From: a virus
IMG/VR virus record: IMGVR_UViG_3300020417_000926
Span: 1 to 54,072 of that record
Direction: 5' to 3' (one strand)
Length of the DNA: 54,072 bases
Part shown: piece by piece, positions 12,056-39,921 of the stretch
Position numbering within the stretch: the stretch's first letter is position 1
How the letters are laid out: each line of letters opens with the position of its first letter
Translations under genes and position numbers: made by a program
Notes under the pieces: generated by a model
Seen by the model: the letters and a program-made list of their open reading frames with translations, nothing else
Database searches by the model: none
What the model was told of the DNA's origin: nothing

Positions 12056-12063
12056 TATTTAGC
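12056..12063 (-). promoter_or_regulatory. T4-like late promoter box (GCTAAATA)
   Basis: Minus-strand GCTAAATA followed by CTACT, 20 nt upstream of the ATG at 12035, with a GGAG site between. It overlaps the stop codon of the helicase gene, separating early replication genes from the late unit that runs to 8268. Confidence 0.65.
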
Positions 12064-13442
12064 TACTCTGCCTTTTTGAGTATACTTCGGAGCCTATCAC
12101 TGCTGTTAACAGCATTATCCTGTGTTTCTGGCTGTGGAGAATTAGTTCCTAGTGTGCTTTTCTTCTTTAACTGATCATATATGTTGTTAAAACTGGTATC
12201 TTCTGCTTCTTGCTCATCTAAATCTGTGATACGCATACTGTCAATGTTAAAATCCAAATCAATTTTTTGTCCAACACCATTACTGCTTCTTGTTTTCATA
12301 AACTGTATCTGTATTCTACCACGTTCACGCATGGCTTTACTGCTGAATATACCAATCACATTGTCTGCTGTTTGTATTTTACTCAAGCCACCTGCAATAT
12401 GCGAATGATCAAACTCAATTTCTTCTACTGCTGATCTGTTTAACTGCGAAGCAGTTGCAAACAAATAGTTTCCTTCAACTGCAAAGTTTCTAAGTTCTTC
12501 TGATACAAACTTATCTTTAATAAACAGATCACTGGGTGGTACTTTCTTTTGTGCTGGCATCATCAAATCCAAATAGTCTACCAATATTGCTTGAATTTTT
12601 TTGCCGTTTTGAACTTCAAACTCTTTTATAAAACTACGCAAGTCATTTACTGTGATACCGTTGGGTAATTGCACAATCTGTAAACCTGCATTGTGTTTTG
12701 CGGCCATTTTTACTTTTAGTTCTACATTGTCTGTGTCTTTTAAAACCTGTCTTGTTGTTAATCCTGTCAGCATTGCATCAAGTCGCATACTGCATAATTC
12801 TTCACTGAGTTCTAAACTCACATATAGTGTGTTATAGCCCATGGCTGTCCAATTGAGTGCTAAGTTCTGTAAGAAAATACTTTTACCTGCACCTGATCCG
12901 CCTGCAAAAATGTTTAGTTCGCCATTGTTGAATCCACCATACAGTTTTTCATCAATGCTTTTCCAACCTGTGCTGGTTCCACCTTTGGCATCTTTGATTG
13001 CTTGTAGTCTGCTTTTTGGATCTGCCCAATAGTCTGTGCCTAAGTTTTTGTTTAAACTTATTGCTACTGCTTCTTTTACCAAATGCTCTACTGCACCATA
13101 CTCTGACTTGTCCAACATGTCTGTGCTGGCCAATATTGCACCTTCTAATCCTTTGTGTCTACAAAATGTTTCAAAATCATCTAAAAACCAATCCTTGTGT
13201 GCTGAACCAGTTTCTCCAATGTTTTGCAATTCCATGTTGGTTATTGCTTTAACCTGTTCATGTGTGGGCATTGCTCCATATTCTGAAGCATGTTCCTGTA
13301 TAAACTCTACCGTACTACGCAACGGTCTATCAAAGTACTCAGGCTTTACAATGTTATTGACACGAACAAATAATTCGTGATCATTCATCATAAACTCCAA
13401 ATACAATTTTTGTAATTCTTGACTATATTCTTTTACTTCCAT
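12063..13442 (-). CDS. gp41: Replicative DNA helicase, T4 gp41 type
   Basis: DnaB-family 5'-3' helicase that unwinds DNA ahead of the phage replisome and works with the primase encoded just upstream. 459 residues (T4 gp41 is 475). The N-terminal helical domain covers residues 1-140. The Walker A GGSGAGKS is at about 181-188, Walker B is ILVDYLDLM, and a later QTADNVIGIF strand and MKTRSSNG arginine-finger region follow. The frame opens at a GTG at 13448, but the ATG at 13442 has a TAGGTG site before it. The primase stop codon (13445) is 2 nt upstream, so the primosome genes are coupled. Confidence 0.92.
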   Translation of the reverse strand: MEVKEYSQELQKLYLEFMMNDHELFVRVNNIVKPEYFDRPLRSTVEFIQEHASEYGAMPTHEQVKAITNMELQNIGETGSAHKDWFLDDFETFCRHKGLEGAILASTDMLDKSEYGAVEHLVKEAVAISLNKNLGTDYWADPKSRLQAIKDAKGGTSTGWKSIDEKLYGGFNNGELNIFAGGSGAGKSIFLQNLALNWTAMGYNTLYVSLELSEELCSMRLDAMLTGLTTRQVLKDTDNVELKVKMAAKHNAGLQIVQLPNGITVNDLRSFIKEFEVQNGKKIQAILVDYLDLMMPAQKKVPPSDLFIKDKFVSEELRNFAVEGNYLFATASQLNRSAVEEIEFDHSHIAGGLSKIQTADNVIGIFSSKAMRERGRIQIQFMKTRSSNGVGQKIDLDFNIDSMRITDLDEQEAEDTSFNNIYDQLKKKSTLGTNSPQPETQDNAVNSSDRLRSILKKAE

Positions 13443-13444
13443 GT

Positions 13445-14440
13445 TCACCTACAATATTGTTTCATCAGCACACGTATCTTTGTTGGGCTTGTGTGTACAT
13501 TATCTAATATACTTCTAACTGTAAACATTCTACCATATTGTTGCTGAGCATCAACACAGTCTTTACAATCTTCCCAAGGTGGAAAACTTACTCCCCAACC
13601 TCTCTCTATAGCACGTTGTACCAATTTTTGTCCTGGCTCGTCCCTGTCTGGACAAACTATGACTTCTTTATTTAGACTATCGATGATGTCGGCTTGACGT
13701 CTACTGCAAATATTATTTGCTATTGCAACACCGCCGGTTACCAATGCATCAAATTGTCCTTCTGTTACTATAACATAATGCCTTTCATGTTGTGCATCTA
13801 AATTAAACACATAATCTTTTTGTTGTTGTAAAAAGTATTTGGGTGTTTCTTTGTTGGGTACATCACCTATCCAACGAGCAGTATAACCTACAATCACATC
13901 TTTGTAATAGAACGGCAATATAATTCTATCTGCAAAGTGTTTGAAATCGCTGTAATACCAGTTTGCCAGTGTGTCCAGCTTTCTGGACGCAAGATATTGT
14001 AATGCTTCCTCTATTTTATCGTCGATTGATACTAAGTCTAGTAGACTTTTTGCGTTTGGCGGCAGTTGTACTTCTTTCCAATCTATTTTTACAGTTTCAA
14101 CCTTTTCTGTTGTGCGTTTGTGTAAGTTTTGTAATTCATCTTCACGCATTAACTCTAGGTTAACTCGTTGTATGTCTGATTCGTCTGCACCAAATGTTTT
14201 TAATAAACTGCGAAGTTTGCCAGATATTTGTCTGCCATTGCTCCAGCCAGTTTTAAATCCACAGTTAAAACAGTTGTATTGGAATGTACCTTCGTCAAAA
14301 AAGAATCCGCCTCTGCCTCTTGTGTCTGCGTTTTCTCCATTTTGCACACACATTGGACAGTTGCCAGATATCCATCCACTAGGAGTACTTTTCCAACCCA
14401 ATGGAACAGTCTGTCTAACAAACTCTAAAACAACACTCAT
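13445..14440 (-). CDS. gp61: DNA primase, T4 gp61 type
   Basis: Makes RNA primers for lagging-strand synthesis. 331 residues (T4 gp61 is 342). The N-terminal zinc ribbon has C28-x2-C31 and C57-x2-C60. The TOPRIM catalytic core shows VIVTEGQFDAL (E227) and VCPDRDEPG (D265, D267). It is encoded directly before the helicase gene. A sigma70-like promoter overlaps the end of the upstream structural gene and lies 8 nt from the ATG. No ribosome binding site is evident, so the message may be leaderless or nearly so. Confidence 0.9.
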   Translation of the reverse strand: MSVVLEFVRQTVPLGWKSTPSGWISGNCPMCVQNGENADTRGRGGFFFDEGTFQYNCFNCGFKTGWSNGRQISGKLRSLLKTFGADESDIQRVNLELMREDELQNLHKRTTEKVETVKIDWKEVQLPPNAKSLLDLVSIDDKIEEALQYLASRKLDTLANWYYSDFKHFADRIILPFYYKDVIVGYTARWIGDVPNKETPKYFLQQQKDYVFNLDAQHERHYVIVTEGQFDALVTGGVAIANNICSRRQADIIDSLNKEVIVCPDRDEPGQKLVQRAIERGWGVSFPPWEDCKDCVDAQQQYGRMFTVRSILDNVHTSPTKIRVLMKQYCR

Positions 14441-14448
14441 ATATGTAT

Positions 14449-14475
14449 ATTATACTCTAATTGTGATTTTGTCAA
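14449..14475 (-). promoter_or_regulatory. Sigma70-like early promoter, short spacer
   Basis: Minus-strand TTGACA (14470-14475), a 15-nt spacer, TATAAT (14449-14454), then 8 nt to the primase ATG. Both boxes lie in the last codons of the structural gene (protein end TVDKITIRV), so part of the match could be coding coincidence. The spacer is 2 nt short of ideal. Confidence 0.5.
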
Positions 14476-15286
14476 CGGTGCCGGTGTTGCTGGCATCAGC
14501 AACATAGTAAAAACGCACCTTGTATAGATTGTGTACAAAGTTTACAGCTCGTACACCTGATGTTGCTGTGGCGTAATTTTCATAACCAGTTAAACCATTT
14601 GTATCTATTAGAAACCAATCTTCTGATCCAGCAGTACCACTGGGTTCTGATTCAACTGATCCTTGTACATAAATTTTGCCTTTAAAATTGGTTGTGTATA
14701 TTGCTACAGTATGCAATCCATCTGATGAGCCTTTTAGTACACTACCATCTGTTGCACTTGTGTATTGTGGATCAGTAGCACCTGCACCACCTGAAAATGA
14801 TGCTAGTGTCACATTGTCTACCAATTTAGGTAATGGTCCTTCTCTCAATTCTACTGTCCATTGTCCTTTATGATTCAACTGCGGGCTTAACAAAAACTCT
14901 TCGCCTTCATTGTTTACGCTGGTGATTGCAAATTCATACAGAGTTGCATCTAAATTTGCTACATCACCTGGCTGTATTTTAAAAGTAACTCGTGCATCGT
15001 CATAACTGTCAACTATTGCATTTTTTGTAACAACTATGGAACGATCTGATCTTTTAATAAGTTTGCCCTTGATGGTCACATTGTTTATATCTGCTGTACG
15101 CCTAGATCTATCATTGATAACTAACTGTATATGGTTATCAACTCCTTTATGAAAAACGAAAGGCTGATAGGTTGTAGGAGAATTTACCGTGGTACTACGC
15201 TTGTAGTATCGGTTATACTGAGAGTTACTGCTATCTTTATTAAGAGTAGCTTCTCCGGTATTGGTATAAGTAAACGCTGTAGCCAT
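14450..15286 (-). CDS. Virion structural protein, beta-sandwich type
   Basis: 278 residues, beta-rich. Residues 48-145 (VTIKGKLIKRSDRSIV, then ARVTFKIQPGDV, then GQWTVEL) resemble the N-terminal Ig-like domain of BppU-type baseplate upper proteins. The rest is Thr/Ser/Gly-rich with a C-terminal KVRFYYVADASNTGTVD strand pattern common in phage appendages. It is probably a baseplate or tail-accessory protein. A late box exactly 5 nt before the ATG marks it as a late gene inside the replication block. Confidence 0.65.
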   Translation of the reverse strand: MATAFTYTNTGEATLNKDSSNSQYNRYYKRSTTVNSPTTYQPFVFHKGVDNHIQLVINDRSRRTADINNVTIKGKLIKRSDRSIVVTKNAIVDSYDDARVTFKIQPGDVANLDATLYEFAITSVNNEGEEFLLSPQLNHKGQWTVELREGPLPKLVDNVTLASFSGGAGATDPQYTSATDGSVLKGSSDGLHTVAIYTTNFKGKIYVQGSVESEPSGTAGSEDWFLIDTNGLTGYENYATATSGVRAVNFVHNLYKVRFYYVADASNTGTVDKITIRV

Positions 15287-15306: not shown

Positions 15307-15684
15307 ATGACAGTTATCTCATCACGCTATAAAATGTTACTTGAAAAATTTCCATTTCTTACCATGGTTCGCTATGGTAATGATGAATTCATTGGAATTG
15401 TAGGAAATGCAGACGGTACTGTGTTCAATATGTACTGTTGGGACCTTTTGAAGAACGAACAAGACAAATTAAACTTTCTAAAACTAGGTGAAGAATGGTG
15501 GTTTGAATCTAATCATAGTATACCAATCAATATATTGCTTTTGAACAGATGGAAATTTCAACCCATACTAAGAAGTTTGAATAATAAAAATGTTGAAGTA
15601 ATGTATGGTCCTGTAACAAGTTTTGGAAATCTAATTAAAAAACGTAGCAAACGCAGAAACATACAACTTATTAAAAAGTATTAG
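15307..15684 (+). CDS. Conserved T4-like protein of unknown function, 125 aa
   Basis: Plus-strand gene among minus-strand neighbours. The sequence (FPFLTMVRYGNDEFIGIVGN, then EEWWFESNHSIPINI, then VEVMYGPVTSFGNLIKK and a very basic C-terminus) matches a pattern I recall from conserved hypotheticals of marine T4-like phages (GExWWWESNRxxPINIF, GPVxSLxxL, KRTKRRxxQLI). The basic tail suggests nucleic acid or polymerase binding. No clear ribosome binding site. Its 3' end overlaps the convergent gene at 15681 by 4 nt. Confidence 0.75.
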   Translation: MTVISSRYKMLLEKFPFLTMVRYGNDEFIGIVGNADGTVFNMYCWDLLKNEQDKLNFLKLGEEWWFESNHSIPINILLLNRWKFQPILRSLNNKNVEVMYGPVTSFGNLIKKRSKRRNIQLIKKY

Positions 15685-16241
15685 CCTTCACATAACAAAT
15701 TCATATGCACCACAACACTTAATGCATACGCCATTGCATGAGCTTTCTTAAAATAGTAATCTGAATTGGCTGGTTTTACCCAAACCTCCTGCATAATATT
15801 TGACCACGATTGGCTTGCCAAATGCCTTTTTGCTGGGCGAATAATTGCCAGTACTGCCGCCAACTGTTCCACTGATGTGGGCTTTAATTGTTGTAGCAGT
15901 TTGTGATGACCACTGACATGAAACACTTGATCCACAAAGTCTTTGTGTTCTAACAGTTCCCATAATGGTTCTTTGTCCATTAATTCTTGTAGATGCTGTT
16001 CAGACTTAACGTTTTTATAAATGCTTACATTCAAACAATCAATCTTAAAGTAACCCATGTCTTCGGCTGTTTTATAGTCTACTGTGCTGAGTCCTGTGAT
16101 TGGATCCTGTGGCATTTCATGAAAGTATACACCTGTGTTATGCTTTTTGCCAGGTTCAATACTGGCAGTAACATATGGAAACTGATCCAATGCTTTTTGT
16201 CTGTCAGCAAAATCTATATCAATATCTGTGTTTGCAATCAT
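15681..16241 (-). CDS. Miniature DNA polymerase III alpha-like protein
   Basis: 186 residues colinear with separate blocks of bacterial DnaE. TDIDIDF (residues 5-11) matches the catalytic PDFDVDF. KHNTGVYF matches KHAGGVVI. MGYFKIDCLN (Asp 68) matches LVKFDFLGL with its third catalytic Asp. VFHVSGHHKLLQQLKPTSVE and AIIRP match VFQLES, LxxLxP and LxRPGP of the fingers. FKKAHAMAYAL matches FNKSHAAAYAL. The PHP domain and most of the long connecting regions are missing. It may be a reduced polymerase, a processivity or decoy module, or a fold relic. The start is the ATG overlapping the upstream stop (ATGA); the frame opens at GTG 16250. Confidence 0.6.
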   Translation of the reverse strand: MIANTDIDIDFADRQKALDQFPYVTASIEPGKKHNTGVYFHEMPQDPITGLSTVDYKTAEDMGYFKIDCLNVSIYKNVKSEQHLQELMDKEPLWELLEHKDFVDQVFHVSGHHKLLQQLKPTSVEQLAAVLAIIRPAKRHLASQSWSNIMQEVWVKPANSDYYFKKAHAMAYALSVVVHMNLLCEG

Positions 16242-16468
16242 TCTATCCACTCAGTTATTTGTATCATTTTATGCAGTTTCTCTTTGGCATCTGTGATCGT
16301 TACTGCTGGTACCCATGCAGTTCCGTGTCCTTCAGTTTCAGATATTCTTTCAATTTCCAATGTAATATCATTGTCAGAATCTTTGACCATTTTTAAAACA
16401 GCAGGGCATTTAAACTTTAGCACATGCACCTTGGGTTTGGCTTTCGGAAACTGAATTACATTACTCAT
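16238..16468 (-). CDS. Small hypothetical protein, 76 aa
   Basis: Not recognised. It begins MSNVIQFPKAKPKVHV, a start common in short phage proteins, then a beta-rich KCPAVLKMVKDSDNDITLEIE segment and a helical end. It is linked by ATGA overlaps to both the DUF2693 gene upstream and the polymerase-like gene downstream, so it is translated as part of the early replication operon. Confidence 0.7.
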   Translation of the reverse strand: MSNVIQFPKAKPKVHVLKFKCPAVLKMVKDSDNDITLEIERISETEGHGTAWVPAVTITDAKEKLHKMIQITEWIE

Positions 16469-16761
16469 ACCTGTGCATCTTCACCATTGCCCAGTGGAAA
16501 ACGCAGTGGTTCTCCTATAACACTATCCCAACGAAAACTACGCCAGGCTTCTTTATCCATATCCCAAACAACCTGTACTTCTTCATTTACTGCTCGTACT
16601 TTCTTTTGTGTGAGTGGATCTTTGGATGGAGGTGGCACATATCCAGGAGCAAGTGTACAGCTCATCTTACGTTTAGTGCCATCTTTCTTTTTAAACTCTA
16701 CTAAAAATTGACTGTCAGTGAGTCTGTCTTTCATCCATTGTTTGGTTGATTCTTCAATCAT
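16465..16761 (-). CDS. DUF2693 / SH3-barrel-like protein
   Basis: 98 residues. FLVEFKKKDGTKRKMSCTLAP, then VWDMDKEAWRSFRWDSVIG, are the two conserved blocks of DUF2693 as found in T4-like phages. The fold is a small beta barrel; the function is unknown but the context is replication. The frame extends upstream to 16794, but the ATG at 16761 has an AGGA site and overlaps the stop of the zinc-finger gene (ATGA), so it is the likely start. Confidence 0.75.
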   Translation of the reverse strand: MIEESTKQWMKDRLTDSQFLVEFKKKDGTKRKMSCTLAPGYVPPPSKDPLTQKKVRAVNEEVQVVWDMDKEAWRSFRWDSVIGEPLRFPLGNGEDAQV

Positions 16762-17429
16762 AATCCTGCTTCCTTCCATATATCTTCTGCCCAACTAACT
16801 GAGGCTCTGTCATGTCTTGTTTTGTGTGTCCAATATTCTGGATCTATAAATTCAGCAATTCTGCTTATTTGTTCATCACTTAATCTATCTATAATTGCTT
16901 GGGCTGAATCACAAGTGTATATTACCCACGGAGATATTTTACCTGTTTGTACCATGTGTACAAATCTATTGCCTGATACTGCATTAAAATAATCACTCCA
17001 CATACCACTGTTTGTGTCTGCCCAATCCTGCATGTTTAATATACTTCTTTCTACACCACGTTCAACTGTTTCTGATTTTAAAAAACGTTTGATCCACATT
17101 TCTAGTATACGATCTGAATACCAATCCGTCAACTTAACACTTTCTCTTATAAGAAATTCTACATACTTGTCTGCAGGATCTATTTTGTTTTCATCTACAT
17201 ATTTGCCAAACTTTACAAAGTCTCCATAGTATTGTGATTCACAAAATTCTTTGATTGTTTTTTCTCTTGTTGCACCTGTGGCCAGTTTGTAAAATGTTTG
17301 AAAAGCACGAAAACCTAGTTGCGTCTGTTTATCTTCGCGATTAAGCCATCTGCGTTTTTTCTCACAGGTGTGTGCCGCCAATGTGCTTTCTTTTCTAAAA
17401 CTTCTTTTACAGTACTCACAGGTAAACAT
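16758..17429 (-). CDS. Zinc-finger protein of the replication operon
   Basis: 223 residues. The N-terminus has C4-x2-C7-x12-H20-x-C22 (MFTCEYCKRSFRKESTLAAH), a classical small zinc finger of C2HC type, followed by a basic KKRRW stretch. The remainder is helical with many aromatics (DFVKFGKYVDENKID, MWSDYFNAVSGNR). Similar proteins occur next to replication genes in marine T4-like phages without a known role; DNA binding is likely. Adjacent to the clamp-loader candidate with the stop and start overlapping. Confidence 0.75.
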   Translation of the reverse strand: MFTCEYCKRSFRKESTLAAHTCEKKRRWLNREDKQTQLGFRAFQTFYKLATGATREKTIKEFCESQYYGDFVKFGKYVDENKIDPADKYVEFLIRESVKLTDWYSDRILEMWIKRFLKSETVERGVERSILNMQDWADTNSGMWSDYFNAVSGNRFVHMVQTGKISPWVIYTCDSAQAIIDRLSDEQISRIAEFIDPEYWTHKTRHDRASVSWAEDIWKEAGL

Positions 17430-17899
17430 TATTTCAATAGTGCTTTTATTTCTTTTGGCTCCATACCATGTTCTTCAAATAGTGCTTTCCAATCTTCTTT
17501 GTCATTGGTTTTTACAAGCAATTCTATTTCATCATCATTGTAATGTGGATAATGTTCTGCAATCCATTTACCAAGTTTACTGCTCTTGCCTGCACTATGT
17601 GGTTTGATCCAGGCATGTTGCCTACGCATTTTACCAGCAGTATGTCCTACAATCTGAAGCAGTCGTATTTGCAGTTCAGGATAATGACGAATTGTGTTAT
17701 AGTGCCTGTTGCTGAATTCATTTACATATTCTAAATAGTGTTCTTGTAAACCTACATCACTGCTCTGCAAAGCACTCATCCAACGTTGCAATACAAATAT
17801 ACTGAGCTTTTTAAGTTCTTCATCATTAAGACTTGGAAACCATGAAGTATCTCTGGTGTCCAGCACTCTCATTTCATTTTGTATGCTCATGTCTGCCAT
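17429..17899 (-). CDS. Clamp-loader small subunit candidate, gp62 type
   Basis: 156 residues. RDTSWFPSLNDEELKKLSIF, LQRWMSAL and HYLEYVNEFSNRHYNTIRHY resemble the cyanophage-type gp62 (W/F..L..EE.K.FS..VL.R..S). T4 gp62 is 187 residues and works with gp44 to load the gp45 clamp. The C-terminal half (KLGKWIAEHYPHYNDDEIELL) also fits a clamp-loader lever. gp44 and gp45 are not in the window. The call is based on remembered similarity and operon context. Confidence 0.55.
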   Translation of the reverse strand: MADMSIQNEMRVLDTRDTSWFPSLNDEELKKLSIFVLQRWMSALQSSDVGLQEHYLEYVNEFSNRHYNTIRHYPELQIRLLQIVGHTAGKMRRQHAWIKPHSAGKSSKLGKWIAEHYPHYNDDEIELLVKTNDKEDWKALFEEHGMEPKEIKALLK

Positions 17900-18136: not shown

Positions 18137-18637
18137 TTACACCAATTTGTTTATGTCAAGTACCTCAGGAACCTTGTTTGCATCTTTCACAAAGAAAGCA
18201 CAACGAGGTTTTTTCTTATCTTCCACTGGTACTGCTAGTATATGTCCATATTTAAGTTTTGGGAAATACCATTTCATGTCTTGGAATACACCTGTAAATT
18301 CTATATCCAAATACTCTGCCATATAACCTGCCATAGGATTCATTGAAAATGCAGTAAAGCCTCTATCATTGATGCTTGTGAGTTGCATTACTTCTGGATC
18401 GCCCATGTCTGGATCTGCTATCACAATGCTCCAATCCACTGGCATCATTAGACTGTGTCCACCAATTTTGAGTGTGATTGCAGGAGCATTAAAACTTTCT
18501 AAAAACACAAGTGGCACAAAAATATAATCTGCTTGTGCTGGATTTGTGTAATCTAAAACACAATAGCGAAAATCATCTATCTGTTCTGGTATATGATCCA
18601 GCTCGTATCCTTCATTTTCTATGGTTAGTATTTTCAT
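18137..18637 (-). CDS. Conserved T4-like hypothetical protein, 166 aa
   Basis: Contains FLESFNAPAITLKIG, MMPVDWSIVIADPDMGDPEV, LTSINDRGFTAFSMNP and VFQDMKWYFPKLKYG. These are blocks I recall as strongly conserved in T4-like marine phages, where the protein has no assigned role. Beta-rich, soluble. Linked to uvsW by an ATGA overlap at 18634-18637, so it is expressed early with the recombination helicase. Confidence 0.75.
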   Translation of the reverse strand: MKILTIENEGYELDHIPEQIDDFRYCVLDYTNPAQADYIFVPLVFLESFNAPAITLKIGGHSLMMPVDWSIVIADPDMGDPEVMQLTSINDRGFTAFSMNPMAGYMAEYLDIEFTGVFQDMKWYFPKLKYGHILAVPVEDKKKPRCAFFVKDANKVPEVLDINKLV

Positions 18638-20085
18638 ATGTAATCGACTTTCTGCACTGAAAAAGGGTAATGTGCCTCCCTATAAAACTTCTTACGTTGA
18701 GTAAGATGCCTTTTGCTAAACTTACAACTTGATGTTATATCCCAAATTTGTATATGGTCTTTGTCCTTGGCTTTACGTATGCCACGACCTATGCTCTGTA
18801 TAACTCTTACAAAAGATTTACCAGGCTCAATAAGAACAAGATTAAAAATGCGAGGAATATTGATTCCCACCGCGGCAACTCCATAAGTTGCAATAACAAC
18901 CATGTTCGTAGATTCGTTAATTTCTGTATATGTGTCTTTTCTGTCTGCACTTTTCATTGCTCCTTTCACAAAGGTTGCATTTGGTAGCAGTTCCTGTAGT
19001 TTGTCACCACACTTAATACGATCAACAAGCACCAATGTATTACCATTCTTGCTCATTTCATCTATAAGGCCACTAATATAATTTAGCCTCTTTTGATCAG
19101 TTACCAAATATGAAAGCTCACTTTGATAGTTTGGAAATTCGGCTGTATCCTGCATCTGTATAACATCAATGTTACATTCTGCAAGTACGCCTTCTTCTTG
19201 TAATTCATGTGCTGACAGTTTGTTAATAACCTGTCCTAGTCCAGCACGTATGCCAAAGAACTCGTGTTGCTCTTTGGGTATTGTGCCTGTTAGTCCCCAA
19301 CGTAATGGCACATTACTGAATGGACCTGTTAACAGTTTCTTTAATACATCTGCTTTTGCTTGATGCACTTCGTCTACCATAACACAAACAACACCTTGCA
19401 AAAACTCATTTAAACTGGTTTCACTTAACCCATCTCTAAAACGTTTTTCCATTGTGTTCAAACTCTGCCATGTGCATATGGTGTGTGTTTTGTTCATTTC
19501 TTTTTTGTCACCAAAGTAAACACCAACATCTAATCCCATGTTTTCATAGTCTTCAGCAGTTTGACGAACCAAATCTTTGTTGGGTACTATCACCACAGTA
19601 CGACCATACTGTTCTACTCGTTCACTGAGTGCGGCCGTAATTAATGTTTTGCCTGCACCTGTGGCTATCTCTTGAACACATTGTGGTGTATCTAAAAACT
19701 GATTGATAATATCAACCTGATAGTCACGTAGCACAATGGGTTCGCCTTCTACAGGATGTCCTTTGGGCCAAGTTAGATTTGTATATGTGTTTTCGTCTAC
19801 GGCTTCTGTGGCAAAGTCCACATGCTGTCTGTGATCATCCAGTTCTATTTCGTAACCATCTGCTTCAAGTATAGGCAGTACTTCGTCTAGTAAATTTATA
19901 TAGGTGCTACCACCCATACTAAAAAACTGTACAGTACCATCCCAGCGACCCAGTTTGTATGCTGGCACGTGATATGCATAAGGCAAAAAGAACTTGAGCT
20001 TGTCCATACACTTTCTTCTAGTGCTGGTTGCTAGTCCTTCTACCTTGCAATTCACTTCATCTTTGAGTACAATTTTACACTTCAT
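18634..20085 (-). CDS. uvsW: DNA helicase UvsW
   Basis: Superfamily 2 helicase that unwinds branched DNA and R-loops and helps switch from origin- to recombination-dependent replication. 483 residues (T4 UvsW is 503). The N-terminal domain is about residues 1-115. Q-motif region LRDYQVDII, Walker A ATGAGKT (141-147), motif II VMVDEVHQ, motif III GLTGTIP, motif IV/V region VVIATYGVAAVGI and motif VI QSIGRGIRKA are visible. A perfect sigma70 promoter ends 7 nt before the ATG with no ribosome binding site, predicting a leaderless or one-base-leader mRNA. It heads the operon that runs toward 15681. Confidence 0.93.
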   Translation of the reverse strand: MKCKIVLKDEVNCKVEGLATSTRRKCMDKLKFFLPYAYHVPAYKLGRWDGTVQFFSMGGSTYINLLDEVLPILEADGYEIELDDHRQHVDFATEAVDENTYTNLTWPKGHPVEGEPIVLRDYQVDIINQFLDTPQCVQEIATGAGKTLITAALSERVEQYGRTVVIVPNKDLVRQTAEDYENMGLDVGVYFGDKKEMNKTHTICTWQSLNTMEKRFRDGLSETSLNEFLQGVVCVMVDEVHQAKADVLKKLLTGPFSNVPLRWGLTGTIPKEQHEFFGIRAGLGQVINKLSAHELQEEGVLAECNIDVIQMQDTAEFPNYQSELSYLVTDQKRLNYISGLIDEMSKNGNTLVLVDRIKCGDKLQELLPNATFVKGAMKSADRKDTYTEINESTNMVVIATYGVAAVGINIPRIFNLVLIEPGKSFVRVIQSIGRGIRKAKDKDHIQIWDITSSCKFSKRHLTQRKKFYREAHYPFSVQKVDYI

Positions 20086-37963: not shown

Positions 37964-38662
37964 CTATTTACCTTGTTTGAAGTAGTCTGCCGTATACTTT
38001 AGCAGTTGTTTGATTTGCTTTGCATTTGCTGGAAATGAATTACGCATTCTATCATAACTCGGCAGTTCTTTTCTGTATGCTTCTGGGTTACGAAGCACAG
38101 CCTCAGGATTGTCTAAGTCCTTCATTTCATCTGCTAGATCACTGGCGTATGCCATAAGTTCATGTGGATCACGCAGGTAACTACGCATTAGATCTGCTTG
38201 TGTGCCACCTTTTTTAACTTGATCCAAGCCTTTCATGTAACCACTTTTGTATTTGGGCAATACTTTTTGATCCATTTTGTCGTATTGATTCCAATGTATG
38301 GTTTCGTGTTGCAACATTCTCATCAATATTTTTTTGAAAGTTTTAGGACCATACACTTTATCTAAATTCTTAGCATGTAGATACACAGTCATAAACTTGC
38401 CTTCTTTTTCAGTCCAATCTGCGGCCGCACTTATCCATTCATCTGGATCTTTGCGTTCAGAATAGTCTGTAATAAATTCTATTGGAAAGTCTTCAGTTTC
38501 AAAATTGAGCAGTTCTTCTAGCTCATTGATATCATCTTTATCATTGTTGGCTTGTAGGAATTCTTGGTAATCTGCCAAAGCATCATCTATAGCAGGCTCA
38601 AGGTCTGCTATAAATTCCCAGTCTGGTTCAACTCGTGCTTCAGTTAGTTCCCAAAATCTCAT
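37964..38662 (-). CDS. Zinc-metallopeptidase-like protein with head-targeting N-terminus
   Basis: 232 residues. Starts MRFWELTEARVEPD, with L-T-E followed by Ala at residues 6-9, an ideal T4-type prohead-protease site. H119-E-T-I-H123 (MLQHETIHWNQYD) is the HExxH zinc-protease motif; the downstream DPHELMAYASDL (E168) could supply the third ligand, as in gluzincins. The rest is helical and acidic near the start. A late box is exactly 5 nt from the ATG. A protease packaged with the DNA and ejected into the host is possible; a structural-maturation enzyme is the alternative. Confidence 0.65.
   Translation of the reverse strand: MRFWELTEARVEPDWEFIADLEPAIDDALADYQEFLQANNDKDDINELEELLNFETEDFPIEFITDYSERKDPDEWISAAADWTEKEGKFMTVYLHAKNLDKVYGPKTFKKILMRMLQHETIHWNQYDKMDQKVLPKYKSGYMKGLDQVKKGGTQADLMRSYLRDPHELMAYASDLADEMKDLDNPEAVLRNPEAYRKELPSYDRMRNSFPANAKQIKQLLKYTADYFKQGK
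37965..37972 (-). promoter_or_regulatory. Late promoter abutting the start codon (GGTAAATA-N5-ATG)
   Basis: Minus-strand GGTAAATA GTAGT ATG for gp13. It overlaps the last codons and stop region of the metallopeptidase-like gene. Confidence 0.7.
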
Positions 38663-38667
38663 AACTG

Positions 38668-38675
38668 TATTTATG
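38668..38675 (-). promoter_or_regulatory. Late promoter abutting the start codon (CATAAATA-N5-ATG)
   Basis: Minus-strand CATAAATA CAGTT ATG for the metallopeptidase-like gene at 38662. Confidence 0.7.
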
Positions 38676-38682
38676 GGAGTGT

Positions 38683-39921
38683 TTACTTAAACACCTGAAG
38701 TATCACTGTTTCTGCGTTGAATCTACCATTGAGTTTGGTTTCAGTTGTTTTGAGATATTCAAATTGCTTCGGTACCTTGTGTTTTGTGATCTTTTTCCAT
38801 TGCGACAATACTTCTTTGGGTTTCCTAATAGTTTTTTGCACACTACGTTGTGCATCAAAGAACTGTATTGTTGTACCTTTCACTTTAAGAGTTGCATGTT
38901 GCTCTGGCACATAAATGCCAAGTTTTCGTGTTTTACAGTTAAACACCACCAACATTGTTGAATCAATAATTTCTGCTGGTTCTTTACTGGTTACACCAAA
39001 ATCACTGTCATATACTTTGTACTTCAGTTTTTTAACCTGTTCGGCGGCAGTTTTTTGTTTAGGCTTTCTGACTATTCTGTTGTGTTTATTTTCAGCCAAC
39101 AGTATATCAAATGCTTGAAACAATCTTTCATAAAACTGTAGAGCATCTTTGCGTTGTGCTTTGTTTAGATGATCATAGCCTTCTTCTAATTGCTTTTGCA
39201 TTTCATCACGTTTGTTTGGAGAAGGCAAAGAGTCTAGTTCACGATATTCTTCCAATGGACCTGTGTACCATTTACGCATGAATCTAACATGTCCCAAGTT
39301 AGTGCCTACACGTTTGAGAGTTTGCAGAATGTTTTTGTCTTTGAGTTTGTTCTTCTGTGGATCAATTAAAAACTCATCAATCCAAGTTTCTATGTCTTCA
39401 ATTTTTTCTTCTGCGGCCTCTTCTAAACGTTCTTGTATTGTAGGAACATAACCTTTTTTAGTTTTCTTTTCTTCTTCTTTCTTTTCCTCAATCATAGTTG
39501 AGCCTGTTTCAATAAGCTCTCCTATACGTTTTTTAATCCATTCAGTCATTGGTGCAAGATCGCCACTGGTACCAGGACATGACTGCCAATACTCTTGTTC
39601 TTTTTCATTGTATTCAGGACAACCATCTAGCAGTAACTTACATTGAATGCCCAGCACTATTTGATATTTGCCGGCTTTTCTAACACTTGCTATATCGTCT
39701 TTTGTATAGCCATTCTGTTTCATCCATGTAAATGCATGTTCTACATTATCGTTGTATTTGTAATTCATATAGTAGAAATCATGCACAGTTGTTTTCAATC
39801 TGTGAAATTGTTGTCCATCCAACTGTTCCCAACCTTCAAAACTAGGTGCTTGTAAGCCTCTAGTTCCGCGTCTAGGTGCTGATGATTTCTTCTTTTTTCT
39901 GACTTTAACTCCGCTAGCCAT
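38683..39921 (-). CDS. Conserved early protein of unknown function, 412 aa
   Basis: Begins MASGVKVRKKKKSSAPRRGT (basic, flexible), then a domain with EGWEQLDGQQFHRLKTTVHD and MNYKYNDNVEHAFTWMKQNG. A charged helical middle (EEKKEEEKKTKKG) precedes a C-terminal domain with STMLVVFNCKTRKLGIYVPE and LKVKGTTIQFFD. The C-terminal domain recalls uncharacterised proteins of marine T4-like phages; nucleic-acid binding is possible. The frame runs upstream to 39978, but AGGAG precedes the ATG at 39921 and the promoter's -10 box lies inside the longer frame, so 39921 is used. Confidence 0.7.
   Translation of the reverse strand: MASGVKVRKKKKSSAPRRGTRGLQAPSFEGWEQLDGQQFHRLKTTVHDFYYMNYKYNDNVEHAFTWMKQNGYTKDDIASVRKAGKYQIVLGIQCKLLLDGCPEYNEKEQEYWQSCPGTSGDLAPMTEWIKKRIGELIETGSTMIEEKKEEEKKTKKGYVPTIQERLEEAAEEKIEDIETWIDEFLIDPQKNKLKDKNILQTLKRVGTNLGHVRFMRKWYTGPLEEYRELDSLPSPNKRDEMQKQLEEGYDHLNKAQRKDALQFYERLFQAFDILLAENKHNRIVRKPKQKTAAEQVKKLKYKVYDSDFGVTSKEPAEIIDSTMLVVFNCKTRKLGIYVPEQHATLKVKGTTIQFFDAQRSVQKTIRKPKEVLSQWKKITKHKVPKQFEYLKTTETKLNGRFNAETVILQVFK

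Follow-up and report, generated by a model that had tools for sequence, protein, structure and literature searches.

The finding of a small gene for a fragment of the bacterial replicase DnaE within the replication operon of a marine virus raises the question of what such a protein would do in a phage of a kind that carries its own DNA polymerase of family B. The window, which comprises 54,072 nucleotides of the uncultured virus record IMGVR_UViG_3300020417_000926, contains this gene on its minus strand, where an open reading frame running from 16250 to 15681 encodes 189 residues when started at a GTG and 186 residues when started at an ATG at 16241. The ATG, which shares an ATGA overlap with the stop codon of the upstream gene, is likely the true start. 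An earlier note on this DNA had recognized five blocks of DnaE in a 186-residue protein. All five are present and follow the order found in DnaE, but the frame is located on the minus strand, the plus strand between 15681 and 16241 being rich in stop codons. Residue numbers given here refer to the 189-residue version and, since that note had counted from the ATG, its D6, D8 and D68 thus become D9, D11 and D71.

Profile and motif comparisons identify the product of this gene (15681–16250, minus strand) as the C-terminal, metal- and template-binding half of a split minimal DnaE, referred to here as the C-half, and thus as a further, marine member of a family of split Pol III alpha proteins that is already published (Iyer et al., 2021; PMC7824862). 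The protein matches PHROG 11778, named 'DNA polymerase', with an E-value of 2e-68 over its full length (residues 6–188 of 189 on profile positions 5–193 of 197), the phage DnaE family PHROG 405 with 3.7e-08 and the Pfam family DNA_pol3_finger with 9.7e-4, the latter value being located just below the cut-off of that family. Searched against the PDB, the profile of the C-half family retrieved Pol III alpha chains only (best E-value 0.003), and its profile–profile alignment to a small set of DnaE sequences scored 97.2% (E=3.7e-11), covering DnaE residues 508–644 and, in a second piece, 754–768. These comparisons bear out the homology to DnaE that had been read from the motifs. The Pol III alpha palm family PF07733 was not matched anywhere in the window. 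For the analysis of relatives, we took the best 80 of 153 matches in viral contigs, and 90 phage records match in total. On one 58.8-kb contig (L001), the DNA of the C-half is identical to that of the window, and it probably represents the same phage sampled elsewhere. When compared to a 90%-identical homologue, the gene displays a dN of 0.073 and a dS of 1.5 and hence a dN/dS of about 0.05, and it is under strong purifying selection.

The conservation of individual positions was counted over 78 distinct homologues of the C-half, including a protein of the phage Slicko01 with 28% identity. The first block, DIDIDF (16209–16226, minus strand as are all five), corresponds to P-DFDVDF of DnaE, with D9, D11 and D13 being equivalent to D401, D403 and D405 and found in 78/78 homologues. 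It is followed by KHNTGV (16128–16145), the counterpart of KHAGGV at DnaE residues 510–515, where H37 and G40 are constant, and by FKIDCLN (16029–16049), the counterpart of VKFDFLGL, where the same holds for K69 and D71, which are equivalent to K553 and D555. The IIRPAK block (15828–15845) matches LFRPGP of the fingers, with R138, P139 and K141 present throughout, and FKKAHAMAYAL (15720–15752) matches FNKSHSAAYAL at positions 756–766, with H171 and Y175 shared by all 78 sequences and K169 by 77 of them. The three aspartates that the earlier note had regarded as kept, which correspond to D401, D403 and D555 of DnaE, are thus invariant. The distances between the blocks have shrunk, with about 21 residues separating DxDxDF from KHxxG in the C-half compared to about 103 in DnaE, and about 25 residues separating RPxx from FxKxH compared to about 113; the protein ends after the last motif.

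The models predicted by AlphaFold2 are of high confidence for the C-half (pLDDT 90.7, 47 sequences) and similarly for a second phage protein described below (pLDDT 91.0). In a Foldseek search with the C-half model, the first 16 matches were all DNA polymerases, nearly all of them named Pol III alpha, in agreement with the relationship to DnaE that had been proposed, and DNA polymerases were also the only structural matches with a useful score. The first eight matches show a probability of 1.00, E-values of 1–3e-3 and TM-scores normalized by the query of 0.40–0.47, and the TM-scores towards polymerase targets are in general modest, covering a range of 0.37–0.48.

Since the C-half begins just before PDFDVDF, it does not contain the preceding segment of the palm with the nucleotide-binding motif GxGRGS, and the suggestion of a self-contained mini-polymerase thus had to be abandoned. 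In related phages, the missing segment is supplied by a separate gene, encoding the second phage protein of about 170 residues (PHROG 11127, here the N-half), which comprises a palm segment with GxGRGS and stops at about residue 393 of DnaE. Its profile, built from 52 sequences, aligns to DnaE residues 285–393 at 95.9%, and the motif is unchanged in 52/52 of them. With the N-half ending at 393 and the C-half starting just before PDFDVDF at 400, the junction is located between 393 and about 397 and represents a clean split of the DnaE palm between two proteins. The PHP domain, the thumb, most of the fingers, the clamp motif and the OB and tau regions are missing from both halves. The N-half of phage CBB is CBB_328, a 172-residue protein described as a 'truncated' alpha subunit (PMC5259590). 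At the position of R390 of E. coli DnaE (ERFLN), N-halves contain a conserved glutamate (the column of E166 of L195 in our A3 alignment), which could signal an altered chemistry or a contact surface for the C-half. In structural searches, the four best matches of the N-half model are Pol III alpha subunits, but these matches are weak (E-values of 0.09–0.28).

Searches of the window with PF07733, PHROG 11127, the N-half profile, E. coli DnaE and a DnaE of about 550 residues revealed no palm half on this 54-kb fragment, nor did a scan of the upstream neighbours of the C-half detect any pieces of DnaE. The family B polymerase was equally not found in the window, and other fragments behave likewise, as would be expected if both genes were encoded at a distance. 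In larger genomes, the two halves occur together. An N-half is present in all nine of the large or complete records that were identified by their C-half, which include seven complete phages, a 331-kb viral contig and a 335-kb contig from a metagenome-assembled genome (MAG) bin of Neomarinimicrobiota. Conversely, a C-half was found in 17 of the 19 N-half records of at least 200 kb. It was not detected in the N-half contigs L136 (228,849 bp) and L162 (288,815 bp), even with a closer profile, and these may either be incomplete genomes or reflect a real loss of one half. A fused or adjacent arrangement of both halves in these contigs, considered due to one weak match running through a stop codon, was rejected because the N-half ends at EFLK with no C-half motif thereafter.

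The expectation that phages of this kind would contain a family B polymerase has been confirmed in all 17 tested relatives of at least 200 kb and, in addition, in the 335-kb relative. In the latter, whose C-half is 66% identical to that of the window, the N-half is encoded at 102.9 kb, the family B polymerase at 128.4 kb and the C-half at about 316.6 kb, and the contig looks like the genome of a jumbo phage inside a bacterial bin. Contigs of phages with a C-half (L209–L216) were also binned in MAGs named Neomarinimicrobiota, Elusimicrobia, Natrialbaceae, Pacearchaeota and others. An origin from a bacterial chromosome was considered for these eight hits and rejected, as they are metagenome-assembled bins that appear to contain phage contigs binned with cells. 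The circular 141-kb phage Slicko01 encodes the primase/helicase, the C-half, a clamp loader and the N-half within about 15 kb, and the pair is thus not confined to jumbo phages.

The genomic surroundings of both halves, which we have compared for 92 C-half and 93 N-half loci, relate the pair to DNA replication. As the earlier note had pointed out, the C-half is part of a replication operon. On the same strand, a gene resembling a virion structural protein (14450–15286, minus) separates it from a T4 gp61-like DNA primase (13445–14440, minus), which is found on the same strand near 74 of the 92 C-half loci, and this gene is followed by a DnaB-like replicative helicase related to T4 gp41 (12063–13448, minus), which is found near 51 loci, many of the others being too short to show it. 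Upstream, the genes of PHROG 11058 (16758–17429, minus), with an N-terminal C2H2-like zinc finger, and PHROG 11758 (17429–17899, minus) are each conserved at 89/92 loci, as is a convergent gene for a protein of 125 residues with no assigned function (PHROG 11637; 15307–15684, plus strand). The products of these three genes are possible subunits. The same operon also contains a UvsW-like helicase (18634–20085, minus). The N-half resides beside the clamp loader, whose gene is located 1.2–5.1 kb downstream in 80 of 93 loci. In 88/93 loci, the gene that immediately follows the N-half belongs to PHROG 14844 (for example 38540–38911 on the plus strand of L091, encoding 124 residues), and its product is a candidate partner of this half. 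The primase, the helicase, PHROG 11058, PHROG 11758 and the 125-residue protein that accompany the C-half are absent from all 93 N-half loci.

Based on these observations, we consider it probable that the gene specifies the C-half of a minimal C-family polymerase that is encoded by two genes in T4-like jumbo phages and whose halves pair into a distributive enzyme for primer or gap synthesis at the replisome. The C-half contains the catalytic aspartates of the DxD and KxD motifs, the strand with KHxxG and two parts of the fingers, and PHROG 11127, encoded far away, contains the remainder of the palm with GxGRGS. The two most likely associate and would in this way rebuild a single Pol-beta-like palm. 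Since neither the thumb and the PHP domain nor the clamp-binding, OB and tau-binding regions are present, such a palm would add few nucleotides in a distributive manner. Its most likely place of action would be the phage replisome, beside primase, helicase and clamp loader, where it would extend RNA primers or fill short gaps before the family B polymerase takes over. The use of primers is suggested by the position of the C-half beside the primase and by the example of B. subtilis DnaE. In its most specific form, where a heterodimeric C-family enzyme devoid of thumb and clamp motif would elongate the primers of the adjacent primase and subsequently hand over to the family B polymerase, this mechanism is a tentative proposal that we regard as rather unlikely. 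If it were correct, polymerases of bacterial and of archaeo-eukaryotic type would cooperate in one replisome, with the pair acting in a manner comparable to eukaryotic Pol alpha or B. subtilis DnaE.

The same anatomy would also suit a different task. The split DnaE might act as a polymerase for repair or recombination-dependent filling of ends together with UvsW, UvsX and a DnaQ-like exonuclease, instead of extending primers. Short synthesis fits a protein devoid of thumb and clamp motif, UvsW and UvsX are encoded in the same stretch, a gene for a DnaQ-like exonuclease is located near the C-half in the phages RaK2 and XacN1, and Iyer et al. (2021; PMC7824862) have suggested strand synthesis or repair as possible roles. 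However, the most tightly conserved partners are genes of the replisome, with primase and helicase accompanying the C-half and the clamp loader the N-half, and we thus regard this function as possible, albeit rather unlikely. It appears improbable that both halves are catalytically inactive relics retained in the replisome for a structural or regulatory purpose, such as to hold primer ends or dNTPs on behalf of the family B polymerase. The loss of the thumb and of most of the fingers and the glutamate at the position of R390 would be compatible with such a fate, whereas the catalytic residues of both halves do not vary even among sequences with as little as 28% identity. Still, the glutamate and the missing thumb make a normal grip of DNA doubtful and, together with the weak fold matches of the N-half, the former argues for caution with respect to activity.

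Some relatives contain a further DnaE of about 550 residues, which lacks a PHP domain but retains all motifs of the palm and the fingers (PF07733, 5e-41). Its gene was located on the minus strand of the contigs L107 (136–1815, directly after the gene of a DnaB-like helicase), L108 (136–1797), L109 (133–1800) and L203 (1471–3174). In three relatives it resides within about 15 kb of the C-half, and a 337-kb contig (G066) combines it with the N-half, the C-half and the family B polymerase. This proximity could indicate that the C-half serves, additionally or instead, as accessory subunit of another phage DnaE such as this one, which is very improbable given that the gene was not seen in most relatives nor in the window and that the protein has complete catalytic motifs of its own. 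Equally remote is the idea of the earlier note that the protein is an inhibitor mimic of host DnaE, which would poison the host holoenzyme through its resemblance to a portion of the alpha subunit, as its likeness to a host protein and the presence of a separate polymerase in these phages might suggest, because it lacks the parts that bind host partners (PHP domain, C-terminal clamp motif and tau-binding region), because a mimic could do without invariant catalytic residues in both halves and without a further gene for the GxGRGS half, and because the gene is common to family B phages with hosts ranging from Agrobacterium to Escherichia.

In our preferred interpretation as split polymerase, the pair would, to our knowledge, be the smallest member of the C-family and one that is divided through its catalytic palm, and it occurs in phages that have, in addition, a family B polymerase of eukaryote-like type. 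With sizes of about 170 and 190 residues and their occurrence in culturable phages of E. coli and Klebsiella (121Q, RaK2), the halves are directly amenable to experiment.

The relationship to known systems illustrates the extent of this reduction. Compared to E. coli DnaE (NP_414726.1), the C-half shows the same order of motifs, with the catalytic DxD and KxD, KHxxG, RP and F-K-H-A-Y, yet it contains 189 instead of 1160 residues, in line with the earlier estimate that about 1000 residues are missing, and it is devoid of the GxGRGS half of the palm, the thumb, most of the fingers, the PHP domain, the clamp motif and the OB and tau-binding regions. B. subtilis DnaE, described as a C-family polymerase of the lagging strand that briefly extends RNA primers prior to a hand-off to PolC (PMC5627055), is proposed as a working analogue, although it is a full-length single protein and the analogy is one that we infer. 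In Microbacterium phage Krampus, the 767-residue gp57, which is encoded next to gp56 and lacks a PHP domain, illustrates that phage DnaE proteins were likewise reduced or divided into genes elsewhere, but in contrast to the C-half it combines palm and finger motifs in one protein. The closest correspondence is found in the group 2.2 jumbo phages, for which Iyer et al. (2021; PMC7824862) have described a minimal Pol III alpha beside a family B polymerase, the former being divided into an N-terminal protein that binds NTP and a C-terminal protein that binds Mg and template, with their genes far apart. The window protein belongs to the same family, with the same division of functions and with relatives that contain a family B polymerase, whereas the window itself covers a fragment of the genome of an uncultured marine relative and includes neither the partner nor this polymerase. 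The family was published from sequence, and no paper with an experimental test of the activity of the split enzyme was found in the literature searched. Compared to the account of the split proteins in that study, the conserved neighbours of both halves and their presence in a 141-kb phage that is not a jumbo phage appear to be new, as does the additional PHP-less DnaE of about 550 residues in some relatives. The pair is relevant to the question of how far a DnaE can be reduced and to the idea of the same authors that phage versions of this kind are models of the ancestral enzyme.
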